The notes beneath the pieces are model-generated. The model was given only the letters and a program-made list of their open reading frames with translations. It was not told the DNA's origin and searched no databases. A DNA stretch of 64,000 nt from Leisingera sp. ANG-M7. GTDB lineage: Bacteria > Pseudomonadota > Alphaproteobacteria > Rhodobacterales > Rhodobacteraceae. The stretch covers positions 62,001-126,000 of the forward strand of contig NZ_JWLI01000006.1 in assembly GCF_000813965.1 (NCBI RefSeq). Direction: 5' to 3'. The position numbers were made by a program, and so were the translations under genes. Below are positions 53,436 to 64,000 of this stretch, in pieces; the first letter of the stretch is position 1, and every line of letters starts with the position of its first letter.

Positions 53436-53691
53436 GAAAGGGTGTGACAGGGATCGGCGCTCAGGGCTCACCAAAGCAGATACGCGCTTCAAACCCGCCT
53501 TCACATGATCCCTGCCTGCCAGTTCCAGCTGCCGGCCCCAAGCAAAACAGCCGTATCCCCGCCTTGGGGCGGGGCCCCGCGGCGGTTTCCCTTGATCCCG
53601 TCCCCTGGCCCCGGCTGTCTGTGCTCACGCGAAGGCGGCTCCGAAGCAGATCGGCTTGGCAGCGGGCTGCACAGCGCCTATATGGCGCGGC
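53436..53691. other. Intergenic region before the dusA remnant
   Basis: No gene is supported in these 256 bases. They presumably carry the promoter of the interrupted dusA. Confidence 0.4.
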
Positions 53692-53763
53692 ATGAGAGAT
53701 TTTGCCCCCCTGCACCAGGCCGCGCGGTTGAGCGTGGCGCCGATGATGGATTTGTGCGACTGA
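53692..53763 (+). pseudogene. dusA: 5' remnant of dusA (tRNA-dihydrouridine synthase A), interrupted by an integrated element
   Basis: The ATG at 53692 reads MRDFAPLHQAARLSVAPMMD and then LCD and a TGA at 53761. RLSVAPMMD is the conserved start of DusA, which continues WTDRHCR in intact enzymes; here the match stops after MMD. The 5' end of dusA is a known target of a family of prophage and island integrases. So this fragment marks the left end (att side) of an inserted element, with the crossover within about 53734-53755. The displaced remainder of dusA should lie past the right edge of the window. Only 24 codons survive, so no function remains. Confidence 0.85.
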
Positions 53764-53946
53764 TTGTAGTGTGCTGATTTTGTTTGGTTTTTCAGTTCTG
53801 AATTTTGCGTGTAGCACATACGTAGCAACCGTCCCTACCTGGGCGTGAAGCTGGGCCTCACTTGTTCGAGGATGCAACATTTCTGTTTGGTCTCCAAATG
53901 AATGTGCCAGGACAGCGCGAAATGTCCCGGCCATTCTGCTAACATC

Positions 53947-54363
53947 TCACAGGATCTTGGCCAGAAGGACATCTGCGTCGCGGATGGCGGCCAGTTTGTC
54001 ATCCAGTGCGAACTTGGCGGCTTTGAATTGTTTCCAGCGGTAGGCCAGGTTCACGTACTCGATGACCTTTTGATCCTGTTCCCAATCCAGATCCACATCT
54101 TGCGAAATCGCGGCATCGCCTTTGCCGTTGCGGATTTCATTCAGCGTTTTGCGGATTTGCTCTCCCATGAGCTCGATCAGATCTTGGTCGATGCCCACGA
54201 GGCCCTCACGCTCCCGGAGAGACCGTAAGGCTTCCAAGATGATCAGCCGAGTCGACCCTTTTGTAGTCAGACTTCCTTCGAGCCATTCTTCTGCGAGCAA
54301 CCGGCCCAAAATGATCGCTTCCAACGTCAGCTTGTGAACGGCGCGTTCATTTTCGATGTCCAT
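53947..54363 (-). CDS. Island protein of unknown function (138 residues)
   Basis: I do not recognise a family. The protein is predicted largely helical and soluble, rich in Leu, Ile, Asp and Glu (LTLEAIILGRLLAEEWLEG, EYVNLAYRWKQFKAAKFALDDKL). GGAG lies 7 nt before the ATG at 54363, behind an A8 tract, which fixes the start over an upstream ATG. It is the second of two same-strand genes at the left end of the dusA island, with two stem-loops between them. Confidence 0.65.
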   Translation of the reverse strand: MDIENERAVHKLTLEAIILGRLLAEEWLEGSLTTKGSTRLIILEALRSLREREGLVGIDQDLIELMGEQIRKTLNEIRNGKGDAAISQDVDLDWEQDQKVIEYVNLAYRWKQFKAAKFALDDKLAAIRDADVLLAKIL

Positions 54364-54381
54364 AGATGTCTCCTTTTTTTT

Positions 54382-54436
54382 GAGTTGGCGCCGCGCCAAC
54401 TCTCAAGACACCAGCCCCAAAGGAGAGAGGGGCTGG
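54382..54436 (-). other. Two stem-loops between small island genes
   Basis: GAGTTGGCG-CCG-CGCCAACTC (54382-54402) is a perfect 9-bp dyad, and CCAGCCCC/GGGGCTGG (54411-54436) is a perfect 8-bp stem with a 10-nt loop. On the minus strand the second follows the stop of the 125-residue gene, and the first abuts an A8 tract and the ribosome-binding site of the 138-residue gene. One may be a weak terminator, the other a translation-control element. Confidence 0.6.
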
Positions 54437-54446
54437 CAGTGCGCCT

Positions 54447-54824
54447 TCAGGTTGCAAGATCGGCCTCGATCAATTTGGTCAGATCACAGTCCTGTTGCCG
54501 ATAGATCGCGTCTTTCAGAGCATCGCTCAGAATGCAAAGCTCCTCGACGATGGGCGAGGCTGGGTCGATCTCGGCGAAACAGGCCGCCTCGAGCGTCTCG
54601 AAATCGTGTACGTTTTTAAGGGTTAGAAGATCGTGGAGCGCGGAAATCCCGCGTTTCATTCTTCGTGTTAGCCTTTGAGCCAACTTGATTTCGTCCAGAA
54701 GCGCCTGGGTCCGGCGCAGAGCGGGTTGGCCACCCAGGAGGACGGACGCATTTTGAAGCGCCTCGTCGTGTGAGCACATGAAATCACGCAGCTCTTTCAA
54801 TGTGTAATGACTAAGGTCGAACAT
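54447..54824 (-). CDS. Island protein of unknown function (125 residues)
   Basis: I do not recognise a family. The protein is helical, with a heptad-like stretch (TQALLDEIKLAQRLTRRMKRGISALHDL-type, about 39-66) and an acidic C-terminus (IEADLAT). AGGAGAACACC precedes the ATG. It lies upstream of the 138-residue gene on the same strand and is probably co-regulated with it. Confidence 0.65.
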   Translation of the reverse strand: MFDLSHYTLKELRDFMCSHDEALQNASVLLGGQPALRRTQALLDEIKLAQRLTRRMKRGISALHDLLTLKNVHDFETLEAACFAEIDPASPIVEELCILSDALKDAIYRQQDCDLTKLIEADLAT

Positions 54825-55162
54825 GGTGTTCTCCTATGCAGCGCCGCGGCGGGGTTGCTAACGGCTTCAAGAGCGGCTGTTTTTCCTTTCGACTGCGCGG
54901 TTTTCGTTTTGAGAGGCTGCTTTCTCTCAGTTCACTGCGGGGCAGGGCGTTTTTTTCGGGGTTCATACCGAAATCCCGAAAAAACAACTGCGACCGCAAG
55001 CTCAGGCAAATTGTTCAATGGAGGGCCATGTGAGCTCGGTAACTCCGCCTCGGCTTCGGATGGGTCGGCATTGCAATCCAAACCGAGCCGACCTTCGCAA
55101 ACTAAATGAACCTCAATCGTGCACGGTGATTTGAAGACACCGCGCCAAACGGAGAGGATTAC
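54825..55162. other. Intergenic stretch in the island with an inverted repeat
   Basis: No gene is supported in these 338 bases. The main feature is a 10-bp inverted repeat TTTTTTCGGG/CCCGAAAAAA (54951-54960 and 54975-54984, 14-nt spacer), which resembles a bidirectional terminator. A GGAGAGG site just before 55163 belongs to the broken DCC-family gene. Confidence 0.5.
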
Positions 55163-55324
55163 ATGTCAGACTCTATTTGTGAAATCCTTCATGAGCATTC
55201 GCGTTTGACCGTCTACTATGACGGAGCATGCCCCTTGTGCTGATCCGAGATAGGGTTCTACTCCACGCGTCGTGGTGCCGAGGCGTTCCTGTTCGTGGAT
55301 GTCTCGGACATGAGGTCCACCTGA
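55163..55324 (+). pseudogene. Broken DCC-family (DUF393) thiol-disulfide oxidoreductase gene
   Basis: The frame from ATG 55163 reads 26 residues ending in the family motif VYYDGACPLC, then TGA at 55241. It then continues in the same frame as SEIGFYSTRRGAEAFLFVDVSDM before a stop at 55322. Intact DCC proteins have an arginine or similar residue right after CPLC, so the TGA most simply arose from CGA by one transition. The frame is also truncated: DCC proteins run to about 120-150 residues, but here the match ends a few bases before the convergent acyl-CoA dehydrogenase stop. It is a dead fragment that probably marks a junction inside the island. Confidence 0.75.
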
Positions 55325-55327
55325 AAG

Positions 55328-56464
55328 CTAACTCAGAAGTTCGCGGGCGATGATGGTTCGCTGGATCTCCGAGGATCCTTCGTAAATCCGGAAGATCCGC
55401 AAGTCGCGCAGGTAGCGTTCCAGCGGAAAGTCGCGGGTGTAGCCGTACCCGCCGTGAATCTGCAACGCCCGGTCTGCGATGCGCCAGGCCGCCTCGCTGG
55501 CGTATAGCTTGGCAAAGGCCGAGTCTGAGGAATACCGCCCACCGGTGCCGCGCTTGCGGGCGGCTTGAAGCCCCAACGCCCGCGCCGCGGCCAGTTCGGT
55601 GGCGCTGTCGGCCAGCATCCACTGCAGCCCCTGGAAACTGCCGATCGGCCGGCCGCCAACCTCGCGTTCCTTGGCATAGGACACAGCCGCACCCAGCGCG
55701 GCGCGCGCAATGCCGGTGGCTTGCGCGGCCACTTCGATACGGCCGTTGTCCAGCACCTTCATCGCGGTGCGGAACCCGGTGCCCTCGCCGCCCAGCCGGT
55801 TTTCCGCGGGCACGCGGCAGTCAAACGAGATCGGGAACACATGCCCGCCGCGCAGGCCCATGGTTTCCTCGTGTTTGCCGATTTCCACACCATCAGTCTT
55901 GCCCGGTTCCACCACAAAGGCGCTGACCCCGCGGGCGCCGACTGCGCTGTCGGTCTTGGCATAGACCACGATGAAATCGGCCTCGCCCGCGTTGGAGATG
56001 AAGCATTTGGAGCCCTTCAGCCGGTAGCCTTCGCCGTCCCGGGTGGCGGTGCTGCGCATGTCCGCAGGGTTGGAGCCAGCCATCGGTTCTGTCAGGGCGA
56101 AGGCCCCCAGCGCCTGGCCCGCCGCCGCGGCGGGCAGAACGCGCTGTTTCATCGCCTCATCCGCACCCAGAAGCAGCGAATCCGTGGCCAGGAAATGCGC
56201 CGTTAGCATCGAGGCGGTAGAGCCGCAGGCCCCCGCAATGGCCTCCACCGCGCAATAGAGCGCCGGCCCGCTGAGGCCAATGCCGCCATACGCTTCGGGC
56301 AGGTTCATCCCCATGATGCCCATCTCAGCAAGAGCCGGACGGTGCAGTGTTGCAAATGCCCCCTCGGCATCGATCGCGGCAGCGGCAGGCGCCAGCACCT
56401 CGTTTGAAAACCGCTCGATCTGGCCGATGACGGCCTGTTCTTCGCTGTTCAGATCAACGCTCAT
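55328..56464 (-). CDS. Acyl-CoA dehydrogenase
   Basis: The 378-residue flavoenzyme makes a 2,3-double bond in an acyl-CoA thioester and passes electrons to ETF. Motifs: LTEPMAGSNPADMRSTA (FAD/substrate region near 127-143), GSKCFISNA, and C-terminal QIHGGYGYTRDFPLERYLRD and RIYEGSSEIQR with the usual catalytic glutamate position. The ATG at 56464 overlaps the end of the CoA-transferase gene by 11 bp. The pair probably processes one CoA-activated acid; the identity is unknown. Confidence 0.93.
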   Translation of the reverse strand: MSVDLNSEEQAVIGQIERFSNEVLAPAAAAIDAEGAFATLHRPALAEMGIMGMNLPEAYGGIGLSGPALYCAVEAIAGACGSTASMLTAHFLATDSLLLGADEAMKQRVLPAAAAGQALGAFALTEPMAGSNPADMRSTATRDGEGYRLKGSKCFISNAGEADFIVVYAKTDSAVGARGVSAFVVEPGKTDGVEIGKHEETMGLRGGHVFPISFDCRVPAENRLGGEGTGFRTAMKVLDNGRIEVAAQATGIARAALGAAVSYAKEREVGGRPIGSFQGLQWMLADSATELAAARALGLQAARKRGTGGRYSSDSAFAKLYASEAAWRIADRALQIHGGYGYTRDFPLERYLRDLRIFRIYEGSSEIQRTIIARELLS

Positions 56465-57641
56465 CGGGGCTCTCCCTGTTTTGCCAAAGTTGTTGCAGAA
56501 TGTCCTGAGTGTGGGCGCCCAAGGCGGGCGCTGACTGGCGCCCGCCCCGCGGCGCACCGCTGAAATGCACCGGCTGCTCCGGCACCGTGACGGTGCCAAG
56601 GGCGGGGTGCTCCACCGCCGAGGCCAGCCCGCGCGCCTGCGCCTGCGGCGAGCCCCAGGCCTCGGGCACCGAACACAGGGCCGCGGCCGGAATGCTTGCT
56701 TGGGATAGAACCGCCACTGCGTCCTGCGCGCTGCGGGCCGCGGCCCAGCTTTCGATATGCTGCGCCAGCGCAGGTTCATTCTGCCGCCGCAAGGCATCGC
56801 TGGCAAAACGCGGATCCTCCGCCAGCTCCGGCGCGCCGATGGCTGCTGCGAAGCGCGCAAACAGCCGGTCGTTCAGCACTGCGACGGTGAAACTGCCATC
56901 CTCGGCCGGATAGGTGCCGAAGGGTGCCGACAGCGCGTGTTTGCTGCCCGTCCGCTTTGGCGTCTCGCCCGCCATCAGCGCCCGGCAGGCCGCCACCGGC
57001 ATCATCGACACCAGCGAGTCATAAAGCGCCAGATCAACATGCCGCCCCCTGCCGCTGCGTTCCCGGTCAAACAGCGCCACCATCGCTCCGAATGCCGCGA
57101 ACATGCCGCCTGCAACGTCGGCAAAGGCATCTCCTGCCATCATCGGCGGGCCGTCCTCGGCGCCGGTCATGTCCATCAGCCCGCTCATCGCCTGGATGAT
57201 GATGTCATAGGCCGGCAGCATCCGGTTCGGGCCTGTCTGGCCGAACCCGGACACAGACACATAGACCAGCCGGGGACAAGCCGAGCACATTTCCTCCGCA
57301 CCCAGCCCGAACCGCTCCATCACGCCGGGGCGGAAGTTTTCGACCAGCACGTCGCACTCTGCCGCCAGCGCCCGCGCCGCCGCCGCGCCGTCCTCGGATT
57401 TCAGATCCAGAACGATGGATTTCTTGCCGCGGTTCACCGATTGGAACAGCAGGCTTTCGCCGTCCCTGAATGGGCCGATGTGGCGGTAGTCATCGCCAGC
57501 GGGGGGTTCAACCTTGATCACCTCCGCGCCCAGATCGGCCATCAGCGCCGTGCAATAGGGCCCGGCCAGAACCCGGGAAAAGTCCAGAACCCGGACCCCC
57601 TCCAGCGGCCTGCGGTCTACCATTTTGTCATCTTCGTACAT
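56454..57641 (-). CDS. CaiB/BaiF-family CoA transferase (family III)
   Basis: The 395-residue protein has the family III CoA-transferase start LEGVRVLDFSRVLAGPYCTALMADLGAEVIKVE, the catalytic aspartate near residue 170 in the PAYDIIIQAMSG-MDMTG area, and the GHPALG-like C-terminal part VEHPALGTVTVPEQPVHFS. It transfers CoA between carboxylic acids, preparing the substrate for the coupled dehydrogenase. An ATG six codons inside is an equal start candidate. It is divergent from a LysR-type gene, which should regulate it. Confidence 0.92.
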   Translation of the reverse strand: MYEDDKMVDRRPLEGVRVLDFSRVLAGPYCTALMADLGAEVIKVEPPAGDDYRHIGPFRDGESLLFQSVNRGKKSIVLDLKSEDGAAAARALAAECDVLVENFRPGVMERFGLGAEEMCSACPRLVYVSVSGFGQTGPNRMLPAYDIIIQAMSGLMDMTGAEDGPPMMAGDAFADVAGGMFAAFGAMVALFDRERSGRGRHVDLALYDSLVSMMPVAACRALMAGETPKRTGSKHALSAPFGTYPAEDGSFTVAVLNDRLFARFAAAIGAPELAEDPRFASDALRRQNEPALAQHIESWAAARSAQDAVAVLSQASIPAAALCSVPEAWGSPQAQARGLASAVEHPALGTVTVPEQPVHFSGAPRGGRQSAPALGAHTQDILQQLWQNRESPDER

Positions 57642-57726
57642 GAACCCACCATCAATTGCTTGCTGGAGAATAGTGGTCGGATGGATATATTCAGAAATAT
57701 GGGATGCATATGGAGGGTATAGTTTT

Positions 57727-58653
57727 TTGAATATACCATTGAACTTTCGCCAGGTTGAGATCCTGCTGGCGGTCGCAGACACCGGAAGTACCGCCGCGGC
57801 GAGCCGCGCGCTGAACACCTCTCAGCCCTCTATTTCACTTGCGATCGCTCGCTGCGAGGAAGTGTTCGGGCAGAAGCTGTTTATCCGCATCCCCGGACGC
57901 GGGATGGAGCTGACCCCAATTGGGCAGCACAAGGTTGCCCAGCTGCGCGAATTGGAGAAACAGGCGCGCTGGGTGCTGAGCGGTGGTGAGAGCACGCCGG
58001 AGTTCCTGAATCTCGGCGTGTTTTCGACGCTCGGCCCACGCTATGCACCGCAGCTGGTGCGCCGTTTTCTGGACACCCGACCGGATGCCGAAGTGCGCAT
58101 CCTCGAAGCCGATCTGGAAACGCTTTTCGATTGGCTCAGCGATGGCCGTATTGACCTTGCGCTTCTGTACGATTTCGGAATTCCGTCGGATTTTGTCATC
58201 ACGCTTCTCATGACGGCGAAGCCCTACGCCCTGCTGCCGCAGGGGCACAGGCTGGCACGCCAGCCCAGCGTTTGCGCCGAGGACCTGGCGCAGGAGCCGA
58301 TCATCCTGATGAACCTGCCCCGCAGCCGCGGCTATTTCCTGTCTCTGTTGCAGAATGCAAGTGTCCCGGTGCGAGTGGCCCACGAAACCAGCTCGATCGA
58401 AATGCTGCGGTCTATGGTGGCCAACGGGTTTGGCGTCGGCCTGCTGGCGACCGACCTGCCAGACGGCACGTGCTATGATGGCAGTCCGGTTATACGGGTG
58501 CCCCTCGCCGGCCGCCCGCCGCAGCATCAGATCGCCCTTGCCCATCGCGGCGCGGCGCTGAAGCGGCCAATCACCCAAGCTTTTACTGCCTTTGCCGAAG
58601 CCTATTTTAGCCCAACGCCTGCCAAGCAGAGCCCCTATCGCGGAGCGACTTAG
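57727..58653 (+). CDS. LysR-family transcriptional regulator
   Basis: The 308-residue protein has an N-terminal winged HTH (FRQVEILLAVADTGSTAAASRALNTSQPSISLAIARCE about 5-42) and a LysR substrate-binding domain. A TTG at 57727 preceded by GGAGGG at 57711 fits the LysR N-terminus; upstream ATGs would add about 30 unrelated residues. It is divergent from the CoA-transferase and acyl-CoA dehydrogenase genes and most likely activates them with their substrate as inducer. Confidence 0.88.
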   Translation: MNIPLNFRQVEILLAVADTGSTAAASRALNTSQPSISLAIARCEEVFGQKLFIRIPGRGMELTPIGQHKVAQLRELEKQARWVLSGGESTPEFLNLGVFSTLGPRYAPQLVRRFLDTRPDAEVRILEADLETLFDWLSDGRIDLALLYDFGIPSDFVITLLMTAKPYALLPQGHRLARQPSVCAEDLAQEPIILMNLPRSRGYFLSLLQNASVPVRVAHETSSIEMLRSMVANGFGVGLLATDLPDGTCYDGSPVIRVPLAGRPPQHQIALAHRGAALKRPITQAFTAFAEAYFSPTPAKQSPYRGAT

Positions 58654-58680
58654 CGCTTGTGCCTGAGACCGTTTGCGAAC

Positions 58681-59358
58681 TCACGCTGACTCAAAAAAGC
58701 CTTCGGGACGGAAACGCACCATCGCTTCAGGGCCACGCGGGTCCAGTTCATAGAGCAACGGTCGGGCGCCCAGGTAGGCGCGCCAGCTTCGCTCAGGGTA
58801 AGTGCTGATCCGAACGCGATGTTTACTGTGCATTCTGGGGGCGAGTTCCGCGATACGCATACCGCCGCCCTTCTTGCTGTGGGCCGCAATCATTGCCCGT
58901 ATCTTCAGATCAAGCGAAGTGGCAATCGTCTCTGGTTCTGGCGCACTGCTTGTGGACTTGGTCGTGGCTATTTCCACAAACCTACTGCAACATGCTCGGT
59001 AGGCACCCGGCGCCTTTGCTTCACCAATTCCGATGACCATTGCCCCGTGCTCGCGCAACCTGGTAGCGAGGTGGGTAAAATCACGGTCAGAACTCGCGAT
59101 TACGAAAAACCGCATATCCCTGGAGAGAAGCAACTCCATCGCATCCAGTGCAAGCAGGATGTCCGCAGCGTTCTTGCCGGTTCCCGCATGCAGCATTCTG
59201 TAGCCGAACACATCATGCCACTTAGAAGGCTGCTGCGCATCAGAATATACTCGGACCACGGCGGGCTCTCCGTGCTCAGCGGCGATAGAAAGAATTTTTC
59301 CAGCGTGCTTTCCGCTAATATTATCTCCATCAACAAGCACCGACACTGACTGCGTCAT
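58681..59358 (-). CDS. NYN-domain protein (LabA/DUF88-like) with likely OST-HTH/LOTUS domain
   Basis: The 225-residue protein starts with an NYN nuclease-like domain (about 4-125). The acidic active-site set is visible: Asp10 in VLVDGDNIS, Asp66 in KNAADILLAL, and Asp91/Asp93 in ASSDRDF. The C-terminal part (about 150-222: LDLKIRAMIAAHSKKGGGMRIAELA, YPERSWRAYL, LYELDP) looks like an OST-HTH (LOTUS) domain, which binds RNA. NYN enzymes are metal-dependent ribonucleases. TTGGAG precedes the ATG at 59358. It lies next to the RADAR region of the island, convergent with the LysR gene, so an RNA-directed defence role is plausible. Confidence 0.85.
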   Translation of the reverse strand: MTQSVSVLVDGDNISGKHAGKILSIAAEHGEPAVVRVYSDAQQPSKWHDVFGYRMLHAGTGKNAADILLALDAMELLLSRDMRFFVIASSDRDFTHLATRLREHGAMVIGIGEAKAPGAYRACCSRFVEIATTKSTSSAPEPETIATSLDLKIRAMIAAHSKKGGGMRIAELAPRMHSKHRVRISTYPERSWRAYLGARPLLYELDPRGPEAMVRFRPEGFFESA

Positions 59359-59701
59359 CGCAAACTCCAAACCCAAGATAAATGAAGATAGTATAGGAAG
59401 CTAAGCGAAAAACTTGTCAACTCAAAGGAATGCTCGGCGTTGCGGGAAAATTTGATACGTGGAGGTGCTTCTCTTTCGGCCTTTTGTGCACCTTCGAGCC
59501 AGGCGCTGCGAGGGTTCGAAAGCAGCTATGAGAGGACGGACGACCAAGGCAAGAAATCCGCGCGGTTTCAACTTTGTCGATCTGCCACGTTGGTCGAATT
59601 CCATATCTGCTCTTACAGCAACATTCTTGCGGGCAAACAAGGATCAGGATAGGTAGACTTCTACCTCAAACTATTTTCAAGTAGAATAAGCAGGTTAGGC
59701 G
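59359..59701. other. AT-richer intergenic stretch in the island
   Basis: These 343 bases have no supported gene. A plus-strand frame of 65 codons (59459-59656) and a minus-strand frame of 72 codons overlap each other; neither has a recognisable domain or a good ribosome-binding site. Confidence 0.4.
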
Positions 59702-60217
59702 ATGGATCTTCTGGAAAGGCTTGCCGAGATAGAATGGAGGTTCTATGCAACTGTAGTCGCAGCCTTCTTGACGTTCGCACTTACGCAAATCTCTCTTTTT
59801 CTCGTCCGACGGAGTGACGCAAGGCGTCAAGTCCGCAGTCTTCAGGTAGCTTTGGCAGCTGAGCTCAGGTCCGCCGTTCAACAGAACGGAGAAGCGCAAG
59901 ACCCAGAGGAGTTCAAAAAAATCATAAATATGGAGATTGCAAAGATAAACGCTTACACTTTTCCGTCGATGAGAAGAGAGATATTCGAAAAGAACTGCGA
60001 TAAGATTGGCAGCCTGCCTATTAGAGTAGCCGACGCGGTAGTAGAGGCGTATGGAGCCATTGATTTATGGAACAGGTTTGCCAATCACTTGAAAACTGAA
60101 GAATTCAAATCCGCAGACGATGCTACTCAAATGGTGATGATCAAATATTTCGTTCAGGTTAACAGTGACGTTCACAGGACATCGAACATAGCTTTAGAGC
60201 AGTTAGTTCCGAACTGA
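59702..60217 (+). CDS. Small single-span membrane protein upstream of RADAR, function unknown
   Basis: The 171-residue protein has one transmembrane helix near the N-terminus (about 13-35, FYATVVAAFLTFALTQISLFLV) followed by a basic stop-transfer stretch (RRSDARRQ) and a helical cytoplasmic domain. It has no match I can name; SLATT and Csx27-type accessory proteins of RADAR loci are also small helical membrane proteins, but the single span here differs from SLATT. It reads in the same direction as rdrA and ends about 340 bp before it. An accessory role in defence is inferred from position only. Confidence 0.7.
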   Translation: MDLLERLAEIEWRFYATVVAAFLTFALTQISLFLVRRSDARRQVRSLQVALAAELRSAVQQNGEAQDPEEFKKIINMEIAKINAYTFPSMRREIFEKNCDKIGSLPIRVADAVVEAYGAIDLWNRFANHLKTEEFKSADDATQMVMIKYFVQVNSDVHRTSNIALEQLVPN

Positions 60218-60554
60218 CGAATACGGCCATTTTCACGGGCCAATATGTTACTCGGGCGCTTCGGAAGAATTTTCGGGATGAACGGCTCCCAAACTCGAAT
60301 TTCCAAAGGCAGCTTCATGTGCCTTGCAACCGTTCGTGCCCTGAGCAGCAAACTTCTGGATTCCGTCTTGTTTACCAAATGTGTTGAACGGCCCAAGGGC
60401 GCCGCTCTTGGATTGCGCGGCGGATGGCCGGTAACTGCCCGAAGTGTATAAGCAGACCAGATGCAGTGAGGCGTAGTTGGGTAGTAGCCTCTTGATTTTC
60501 CTTAACCATTGGTATCTCAAGGATTGCAAAGCTCTTGATTTAATCAAGGCATGG
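60218..60554 (+). promoter_or_regulatory. Upstream region of the RADAR operon with operator-like repeats
   Basis: No gene is supported in these 337 bases. Just before rdrA lies a perfect 15-bp palindrome CTTGATT-T-AATCAAG (60534-60548), overlapping the AAGG ribosome-binding site. A direct copy of its left side, CTCTTGATTT, is at 60489-60498 and again at 60532-60541, 43 bp apart (about four helical turns). This is the arrangement expected of an operator for a repressor that keeps the operon low, but no such regulator is identified. Confidence 0.45.
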
Positions 60555-63335
60555 ATGACCAAAGGGGATGATGTGCGTATTATTGATCTTAATCGCAGCG
60601 GGGCAGAGCGTTTCGAGGATGCCAACAAGGTGCTTCAGAACGAGGCCTTTGACCATTTACGTAAAATAATAACCGGGCAGCTCGATCGTTTGGAGGACAG
60701 CAGCTTCACAACCCAGTCGGGAACAGAGCTGAATTACCCCCGTCCCCACGAAGGGATTTTGATCGAAGGCGGGCGCGGAAGCGGGAAAACGACTTTTCTC
60801 TTGAACGCTTTGCATGACCTCAACAGCGCCAAGGATGGATGGGCTGCAGACCTACATAAACGGCTCCATGTGTTGCCGGTAATCGATCCAACTCTGATCG
60901 AAACCAAGGAACACATCATAATCGTCATCATTTCGCTTATCGACGCAGCGTTGGACAAGTTGACCCTGGATGCGGATCAGCAGAGTGTGGACCAAGCACG
61001 GTCTGAAATGGCAGAGGGACTGGGGCTGCTTGATGGGATCGGAAAATCTTCCCCCTATGGCGATGAATGGGAAGACCCCGCATGGATCATGAGCCGTGGG
61101 TTGCGCAAGGCGGCCAAGGGGCGAACATTCGAGATCAAGCTGCGAAAATATATCGACGAAGCTCTGAAAATTTTGAATAAGAAGGCCTTCGTTCTGGCAT
61201 TCGACGATGTCGACACGAACTTTCAACACGGTCACTCCATTCTGGAAACAATTCGAAAGTACCTCGCCTCTCCGCAGCTCATTCTCATGATTTCGGGCGA
61301 TCTCGAGCTTTATGGCCGCTTGGTTCGACGCAACATCTACGAGACGTTTGGCGAAGGGGTGATGAAGCATGATCCCAAGGTGATCGGCGAAGACAAGACC
61401 GGGCTCTCCGACGCCGTTCGCGAGTTGGAAGAACAATATCTGCTAAAGATCGTGCCGCCGCAGAACCGCATCGCGATGCTTCCACTTAGCGGGATCTTGC
61501 AGGCAGTCGACACCTCAGAAATGCTTGTCGACCCAATTGGGAACGAAGACCTGCAAGAACTCGTACCTTGGGCCAGCAAGAAAATTCGCCAGCAACTTCT
61601 TGAAGCCGATTCCATGGACGGCAGAGCCCAGCCGCCTCATCCGTTCTTCAACGTGATGTCGCGCGAGCACTTGCGCCTGCTCATCGGGTATCTCCGCGCG
61701 TTGGGAGACCCCGACCAAGGCGCCAGCCGCCGCGGCGTCTTTACGGTCTTCGAAACCCGGCTGCGCGCCGCAGGTTTGCAATCCGAACTGTTTTCCCATG
61801 CCACATTGGACGACTCTCTCCAAAGGGCCTTTCGGTGGCTGGTTGCTCAGGACAAGCCCACGTCGCTAATCCGGTTCGGCGTTCCGAGCGATACGGAAAA
61901 GGCGATCATACTGCACTGTTTCGCCCTGTCCATCGCCCCCAAATTGCACAAATCGCCTTCGGGATGTCTGCGCGCGCTGTTTGCACTCAACCTGCCCATT
62001 TCCATGATGCAGCGCGAGCGCTACGCGATGCCGGATGTGCGCAAGTCCATCTTCGACTTCATTTGGGAAGACGCGAGCCCAGATCTTTTGGAGGTGGCTG
62101 GACGCATCGGCTCCATCAGCCGGTCTGGAAAGGATGAGGAGGGCGCGAACATTGGCAACTTGCGGGCAAGCTCTTTCGGGTCTGTTGGCACGATGCGGGA
62201 CGTGCGTGGAAATCGCCTTTCCCGATTGTTCGATTTCACATCTGAGGAGATCCAAAGAGGAGCCAAAAAGATAAAGGACGTTGAAGAGGTTGTAAAAAAC
62301 CAGACCTCCGACTTCTCGAATTCGAAATGGGTTCAGAGTTTGGCAAGTCAAGAAGACAGAGCCGAGTTAAGTGCTGAAAAGGGAATCCTCTGGTTCCCGC
62401 TCGAAGACCTCGAAGCGCGCAGCGGTCAATTCAAGAACGTGCTTGGCTTGGCCACATTTGACCGTTTCAGCAGTCGAGGAGAGCAGTTCCGCTCGATTTC
62501 TGCGCTCTCACTATTCGCGGCAATCGGCGAGCTTCTGGCGCGAGATGACGTCAGCGATCTTGGCGCAATGGCACCGACCTCGACTATGCCTGCCTTTATG
62601 CCAGACGCGAAAGTGGCCCGCGAAGGGGCGATCGATGTCTCATCCACTTCTGCAAATGAGGAAGACGACAATAACGACGAGATCGAGACAGAAGACGAAA
62701 GCTCCGGATATGCCGCGTTCCTGGAAAGCTTGCAGGCTTGGCATGAATTTGCGCGGGCGAACTCGGAACATGCAGCTTTGTCGCCGGCGATGCTGGCGCG
62801 CGTTTCCGAACGAATTCACGACCAACTGATCGCGTTGGATGAAGCCGTGAAGGTGGACTGGAAGACGGGCCACATTCTTCATCGCCAGATCACAAACATT
62901 TTGCATGCTTTGCTCGCAGTCTCGTCTGGTTGGTCCGGGCGTTTCGACTCGCCGAAAACCTCTGATCGCCCCCTTGTCGAGGGCCTACAACGTGCCGCCG
63001 CAGATGATGCGCGCAGGTTCCATTCGCTGGCCGCAATTGTGATTTCCTGCCCGCTTGTCTGGGCGTTCCTCAATCCAGAAGAAACCTACAAGCAAAGTGG
63101 GACCAACCTTCAGGTTCTGCGCGTTGAGGTCGAGAAAGCCCTGACGACTTGGCAGGAGGCGCGCGGGTCCAAAGAGGCGACATTCGATCCGGAGTGGTTA
63201 AAAGCTCCGGAAATAGAAATCGCAATCGGGCGCAGCAACAAAAGCAAGTCTCAACGAACGTTAAGGCAAAATGGCTTTTTCGATGTTCTGAACGTAGTGC
63301 CTTGCTATTCACCGAAATCCGGCACCTCAAAATGA
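60555..63335 (+). CDS. rdrA: RADAR anti-phage system ATPase RdrA
   Basis: The protein of 926 residues is a large P-loop ATPase. Walker A is GGRGSGKT at 72-79, Walker B is FVLAFDDVD at 212-220, with a following NFQHGHSIL sensor-like segment, as in KAP/STAND-type NTPases. In RADAR, RdrA forms rings that bind ATP and work with the RdrB deaminase to arrest phage growth. Size, motifs, gene order and 4-bp overlap with the deaminase gene support the call. The ATG at 60555 has AAGG 5 nt upstream; a TTG at 60477 would add 26 residues. A central acidic stretch (about 695-725: NEEDDNNDEIETEDE) is probably disordered. Confidence 0.85.
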   Translation: MTKGDDVRIIDLNRSGAERFEDANKVLQNEAFDHLRKIITGQLDRLEDSSFTTQSGTELNYPRPHEGILIEGGRGSGKTTFLLNALHDLNSAKDGWAADLHKRLHVLPVIDPTLIETKEHIIIVIISLIDAALDKLTLDADQQSVDQARSEMAEGLGLLDGIGKSSPYGDEWEDPAWIMSRGLRKAAKGRTFEIKLRKYIDEALKILNKKAFVLAFDDVDTNFQHGHSILETIRKYLASPQLILMISGDLELYGRLVRRNIYETFGEGVMKHDPKVIGEDKTGLSDAVRELEEQYLLKIVPPQNRIAMLPLSGILQAVDTSEMLVDPIGNEDLQELVPWASKKIRQQLLEADSMDGRAQPPHPFFNVMSREHLRLLIGYLRALGDPDQGASRRGVFTVFETRLRAAGLQSELFSHATLDDSLQRAFRWLVAQDKPTSLIRFGVPSDTEKAIILHCFALSIAPKLHKSPSGCLRALFALNLPISMMQRERYAMPDVRKSIFDFIWEDASPDLLEVAGRIGSISRSGKDEEGANIGNLRASSFGSVGTMRDVRGNRLSRLFDFTSEEIQRGAKKIKDVEEVVKNQTSDFSNSKWVQSLASQEDRAELSAEKGILWFPLEDLEARSGQFKNVLGLATFDRFSSRGEQFRSISALSLFAAIGELLARDDVSDLGAMAPTSTMPAFMPDAKVAREGAIDVSSTSANEEDDNNDEIETEDESSGYAAFLESLQAWHEFARANSEHAALSPAMLARVSERIHDQLIALDEAVKVDWKTGHILHRQITNILHALLAVSSGWSGRFDSPKTSDRPLVEGLQRAAADDARRFHSLAAIVISCPLVWAFLNPEETYKQSGTNLQVLRVEVEKALTTWQEARGSKEATFDPEWLKAPEIEIAIGRSNKSKSQRTLRQNGFFDVLNVVPCYSPKSGTSK

Positions 63336-64000
63336 TCGACGACGAGCCCGAGCAAAAAGCCCGGCTTCGCGGGTTGATTGATATTGCCAAGGCAACGCTC
63401 TCGAACGTGCATCTTGCCCAATTTCTCGAGCACGAGGCGCCGGAACGCCGGACCGCGGACCAGCTTCAATCACTATGGGGACAGCATAAAAAGCGCGATG
63501 CGCTGAAGGCGGCTCATGCAAGCGGGCGCTTTCTTCACTACCGTAAGTTGAAGCCAAAGCTGACGGACGAAGCCATCGAGAACCGCATTGCCTTGACCGC
63601 GGCGGAATTGGATCGTGAGACGCGCACAAGCCGTCGCAATATTCTTGATGACCCGTCCAAATGCCTGGTCCCGGTCCTCACCCGTCTGGGCGAAACGTTC
63701 CTTTGCGAAGGGCGCGACGGGTCTTTGCGTGTGCATACGCGGCTATTGGCCGAATGGCAGGACTTGATCCTTGTTGTTCCTCCAATGTTGATCACGGCGG
63801 CTTGGATGGCGGCGCGCCGACCAACATCATGCGAAGACCGCCAATCTCTCTCGGCAGTGAAGAGCTTTCAGAAGCGGGTACAGGGATGGCTGTGCGACAG
63901 CACTCTACCCGTGGATGACGACCCTTTCTTGGATCAGCTCTGCCGGTCGGAAGGGCTTGACGAGACGCACATGCACCTGAATGGCACCACTGAAGCGGAC
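63332..64000 (+). CDS. rdrB: RADAR adenosine deaminase RdrB (5' part)
   Basis: The first 223 residues are present; the frame is open at the window edge. The ATG at 63332 overlaps the rdrA stop by 4 bp (ATGA), typical coupling. The N-terminal 200 residues are a charged helical region; then the sequence reaches ETHMHLNGTTEAD, with His213 and His215 in the HxHLNG pattern that forms the first zinc ligands of adenosine deaminase-type enzymes, as in RdrB. RdrB converts adenosine nucleotides to inosine forms and assembles with RdrA. The later zinc ligands and catalytic glutamate lie outside the window. Confidence 0.85.
   Translation, partial: MIDDEPEQKARLRGLIDIAKATLSNVHLAQFLEHEAPERRTADQLQSLWGQHKKRDALKAAHASGRFLHYRKLKPKLTDEAIENRIALTAAELDRETRTSRRNILDDPSKCLVPVLTRLGETFLCEGRDGSLRVHTRLLAEWQDLILVVPPMLITAAWMAARRPTSCEDRQSLSAVKSFQKRVQGWLCDSTLPVDDDPFLDQLCRSEGLDETHMHLNGTTEAD

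Follow-up and report, generated by a model that had tools for sequence, protein, structure and literature searches.

A RADAR operon carried by a genomic island at dusA in Leisingera sp. ANG-M7

Two overlapping genes stand at the right edge of a stretch of 64,000 nucleotides of the Leisingera sp. ANG-M7 genome (the window; positions 62001-126000 of contig C55, which has 554,182 bases), and the second of them is cut off by that edge. Do they make up a whole anti-phage operon of the RADAR type, and if so, would it be expected to work in the same way as the characterised Escherichia coli system? A first-pass annotation had proposed a complete or near-complete RADAR locus from the letters of the window, and reading on along the contig shows that the operon is complete:

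60555..63335, + strand: rdrA, the AAA+ ATPase of RADAR (926 aa)
63332..64000, + strand: first 223 codons of rdrB, the adenosine-deaminase-fold protein of RADAR
rdrB at its full extent: to C55:127950 (window-equivalent 65950), 872 aa in all

The rdrA frame begins with the ATG at 60555 and its stop ends at 63335; the ATG of rdrB, on the same strand, lies at 63332-63334, so that 4 bp (ATGA) are common to the two genes, as first described. The rdrB frame is open up to the end of the window and continues without an internal stop through C55:127950. Adjacency on one strand is the rule for the pair: it was found in all 17 loci with listed open reading frames (the window and 16 others), a count that includes one locus with rdrB in two frames (L005) and one in which rdrB runs off the contig (L025).

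The truncated gene had been recognised by an HxHLNG motif, which is present as HMHLNG at residues 213-218 of RdrB, and the remaining zinc ligands of the deaminase, which were to be sought past 64,000, are indeed there. By alignment, H213, H215, H584 and H616 and the catalytic E587 correspond to H152, H154, H498, H530 and E501 of the E. coli protein, given as its zinc ligands and catalytic residue in the portion of PMC9994260 drawn on here; a second alignment places H616 likewise. All five are invariant among 11 of 11 aligned RdrB proteins (a set that leaves out the frame-split L005, the contig-end-cut L025 and the viral loci L033-L036). Residues 198-858 matched the solved E. coli RADAR deaminase (PDB 8fnv/8fnw) at E=2.2e-80, aligned to 137-779 of its 799 aa, and identity to a near-copy of the E. 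coli protein (L034) is 29%. Matches to the RdrB models of PADLOC (6.1e-25) and NCBIfam (6.2e-46) agree with this, as do a Pfam A_deaminase match above its cut-off (47 vs 27 bits) and a length of 872 aa, in the size class of RdrB (a protein of some 90 kDa whose deaminase core has insertions). In a 13-row RdrB tree (L005, L025, L033 and L035 left out), the window protein grouped with L034, apart from the Aliivibrio RdrB, with 99/99 support; the tree carries a long-branch warning, and three long branches (L026, L027 and L021) meet in it, so that their joint placing is unsure.

RdrA is divergent in its C-terminal part. The P-loop ATPase of about 926 residues that had been reported is borne out by a frame of exactly that length, with GGRGSGKT at residues 72-79 and FVLAFDDVD at 212-220. 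Its N-terminal third matches the RdrA proteins of PADLOC and NCBIfam and the RADAR ATPase in the PDB (8fnt/8hr7; E=1.7e-27), and in the ATPase domain 77 of 234 aligned residues (33%) are identical to E. coli RdrA. Pairwise alignment places Walker A at G77-K78-T79 (E. coli G81, K82, T83), Walker B at D217/D218 (D221, D222) and sensor 1 at D249 (D253), and sensor 2 is R374, corresponding to E. coli R377 when counted along a profile alignment; K78/T79, D217/D218 and R374 are invariant in 13 of 13 aligned RdrA proteins. The C-terminal two thirds went unmatched in every single-sequence search (PADLOC, NCBIfam and PDB), and in the same portion of PMC9994260 significant sequence similarity between the published RADAR systems is confined to the ATPase domain of RdrA. 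A profile of nine RdrA relatives, whose members share about 22-31% local identity with the E. coli type in their main stretches (>60 residues), nevertheless aligned to E. coli RdrA over 8-557 and 618-861 (E=7.9e-81), and it is by this match that the helical, divergent C-terminal lobe of RdrA can be recognised. The first such profile (A1) was dropped as circular, because one of its members (L020) shares 64% identity with the E. coli type, and was replaced by A6. The predicted structure of RdrA is poor (mean pLDDT 43.5), with a C-terminal part that is mostly helical at low confidence; all 20 PDB matches of this model at E<=0.001 are RdrA, which weighs little given the quality of the model. For both proteins, as had been supposed, the best PADLOC, NCBIfam and PDB matches are RADAR proteins.

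Neither protein reaches the NCBIfam equivalog cut-off (RdrA 172 of 600 bits, RdrB 157 of 800 bits). The L034 pair, nearly a copy of the E. coli pair of solved structure and scoring 1978 and 1770 bits against 8hr7/8fnw, obtains only 134 and 116 bits on the same models, below the window pair, so the cut-off omits proven RADAR proteins and we did not count it as defining. An Aliivibrio pair annotated as rdrA and rdrB scores 781 and 970 bits; taken together, these scores indicate that the NCBIfam models describe one branch of the family. The present cut-offs can thus leave such RADAR pairs unnamed, as with the Rhizobium and Pantoea pairs, which are recorded as 'hypothetical protein'.

How might the operon act? 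By homology to the E. coli system, a ring of the RdrA ATPase would dock on a shell of RdrB, and phage infection would be sensed, probably via the helical C-terminal half of RdrA; RdrB would then deaminate ATP and dATP to ITP and dITP, which would spoil the nucleotide pool, and phage replication would stop. The deamination chemistry is supported by the conservation of the residues concerned, and by analogy we infer that ring and shell assembly, substrate, trigger and protection against phage would be those of the E. coli type in the window copy also. The likeness to the E. coli P0304799.3 system (8fnt, 8fnv, 8fnw; 8hr7 series) extends to two genes in the same order, to the catalytic residues of both ATPase and deaminase, and to homology across most of both proteins. 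The differences are the level of identity already given and the published crown and triple-glutamate residues, which do not align to residues of like kind in the window pair: the crown contacts K150/E151/R162 of E. coli RdrA align to V145, D146 and a gap, and the triple glutamate E595-E597 of E. coli RdrB to P681, a gap and A682, both in places where the alignment is judged weak.

We consider it very likely that these two genes make up a complete RADAR operon for defence against phage, acting like its characterised E. coli counterpart. A decayed or non-functional remnant would be conceivable in view of an 89%-identical relative in Tropicibacter alexandrii, the rdrB of which is split over two reading frames, so that either loss does occur or there is an assembly error in that genome; both frames are intact in the window's genome, however, and the catalytic residues are kept, which makes decay extremely improbable here. 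It is equally hard to credit that the pair has the same folds and another job, such as acting on another nucleotide substrate or on RNA. Such a reading could draw on the match of the RdrA C-terminal part through a family profile only, and on the interface residues that differ (within those weak stretches of alignment), but the locus sits in a defence island, and the distance from the E. coli type is unexceptional: published RADAR systems with a protective effect in E. coli are mutually 22-25% identical in the RdrA ATPase domain and 24-28% in the C-terminal portion of RdrB (from the part of PMC9994260 used above), against 33% (RdrA ATPase domain) and 29% (RdrB) between the window pair and the E. 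coli type by other alignment methods. There is a small chance that the alphaproteobacterial clade of this operon (the window, L005, L006, L022 and L023) differs from E. coli RADAR in its contact surfaces and in the sensor lobe at the C terminus of RdrA, far enough for another assembly or phage trigger, with the same chemistry.

Two genes that lie directly upstream were considered as possible added parts of the operon:

58681-59376, - strand: NYN-domain gene, near the RADAR operon
59702-60217, same strand as rdrA: gene for a small membrane-type protein, with a single hydrophobic segment close to the N terminus (judged by eye)

The second of these ends 337 bp upstream of rdrA, and its strand and hydrophobic stretch would suit a three-gene variant with a membrane-type component. 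Against this, all 16 other RADAR loci lacked a match to it below E=1.2 (the rdrA-upstream flank covered 1.0 kb for L022, 1.9 kb for L025 and at least 2.8 kb for each of the other 14), no match occurred in 72,556 plasmids, and among 394 genomes of the family there were five matches, its own and four weak ones, none of them in the other two rdrB-bearing genomes. A three-gene variant therefore seems very unlikely, and the gene was rejected as an accessory of RADAR for want of support from the other loci, the plasmids and the family genomes. The NYN-domain gene was set aside as a partner likewise, having no match below E=0.34 beside the 16 other loci. Since neither neighbour recurs there (flanks are short for this comparison in L022, L025, L034 and L035), the window operon is probably the plain two-gene form of RADAR. 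As to the suggestion that further genes of the system might follow rdrB, none was found; the Zac, Zorya and restriction genes beyond it belong to other systems.

RADAR occurs in few genomes, 270 of some 38,000 by the count in the portion of PMC9994260 cited, and it appears rare among the relatives of the window's genome too: at E<=1e-10, rdrB was found in 3 of 394 genomes of the family, 6 of 385 of the class and 1 of 21 of the genus, the window's own genome being counted in each. Pleomorphomonas sp. JP5 (L006) has the same two-gene operon, with RdrA 62% and RdrB 67% identical to those of the window. In Tropicibacter alexandrii (L005; a member of the Rhodobacterales, filed by NCBI under Roseobacteraceae), RdrA is 92% identical and rdrB 89% in its best segment. 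The genes next to the operon differ from the window's in both organisms, and the two sets of flanks are also unlike each other. The rdrB of T. alexandrii (L005:7001-9620) consists of two overlapping frames of 832 and 124 aa, by a frameshift or an assembly error. No RdrB was found in 50,697 phage records; viral contigs gave four loci by RdrB, and three of the same contigs by RdrA. L034, L035 and L036 are RADAR pairs in viral contigs, L034 being the E. coli near-copy already mentioned; those of L034 and L035 come after a run of small lysis-like genes (by eye) and are therefore probably prophage cargo. Three plasmid matches (H4, H6 and H7) were left out of the locus set. The RADAR copy in the window is an ordinary one of known kind, with nothing about the locus that looks new, and it leaves knowledge of the system unchanged; as a divergent alphaproteobacterial member, it is of use for finding conserved surfaces of RdrA.

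How did the operon come to be where it is? The genomic island postulated at the outset could be bounded as an insertion of about 59.7 kb in the 5' end of dusA, and the RADAR operon is part of its cargo:

53652..53695 (C55:115652-115695), + strand: at the outer edge of the island, a match to the region upstream of dusA, with its start codon, in two sister genomes
53696..64000, no strand: left part of the island (about C55:115696-175394 overall; the remaining ~49 kb lie beyond the window)

The matches at the dusA start comprise 44 and 51 columns at 84% identity, and the body of dusA runs from near C55:175395 onward (NCBIfam DusA, 499 bits vs 269), adjoining a gene for a recombinase of the Phage_integrase family. 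In two sister genomes (L047 and L048), sequence corresponding to C55:115431-115435 is separated from that of C55:175416-175430 by about 90 and 120 bp, and dusA is present in that place, from which it follows that about 59.7 kb have been inserted in the window's genome. The empty site was seen in these two of three sister-genome stretches; the third (L049, genome G786) matched in the left flank only, its other 12.7 kb being unmatched in C55:62001-241400 and without dusA, which implies other DNA at that place, through another insertion or a rearrangement. The position in the 5' end of dusA and the Phage_integrase-family recombinase beside it recall the dusA-associated genomic islands of PMC4482086. 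That paper names an integrase family for such islands, to which the recombinase beside dusA here may or may not belong; a difference is that no direct repeat of at least 12 bases was found between the two ends of the present island. The GC content of the island is 0.580 (rdrA 0.546, rdrB 0.564), against 0.621 for window positions 1-53435.

Beyond rdrB, the island carries ZacA, ZacB and ZacC (PADLOC; a literature search on these three names found nothing on a Zac system), a UvrD/AddA-like helicase with a PD-(D/E)XK domain and a second PD-(D/E)XK protein, a WYL protein, type I Zorya A-D, a second Phage_integrase-family gene, and the type I restriction genes hsdM, hsdS and hsdR (Pfam). Near its left edge there is a frame of 125 aa (window 54447-54824, - strand), of which a 71%-identical partial copy (L002:6891-7172, - strand) occurs just downstream of rdrB, so that related pieces flank the RADAR-bearing stretch. 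Finally, we draw attention to window positions 55300-58613, which hold genes resembling (by eye) those for a CoA transferase, an acyl-CoA dehydrogenase and a LysR regulator; a second copy of these, 83% identical, is present elsewhere in the same genome (C34), and there are copies in several sister genomes.
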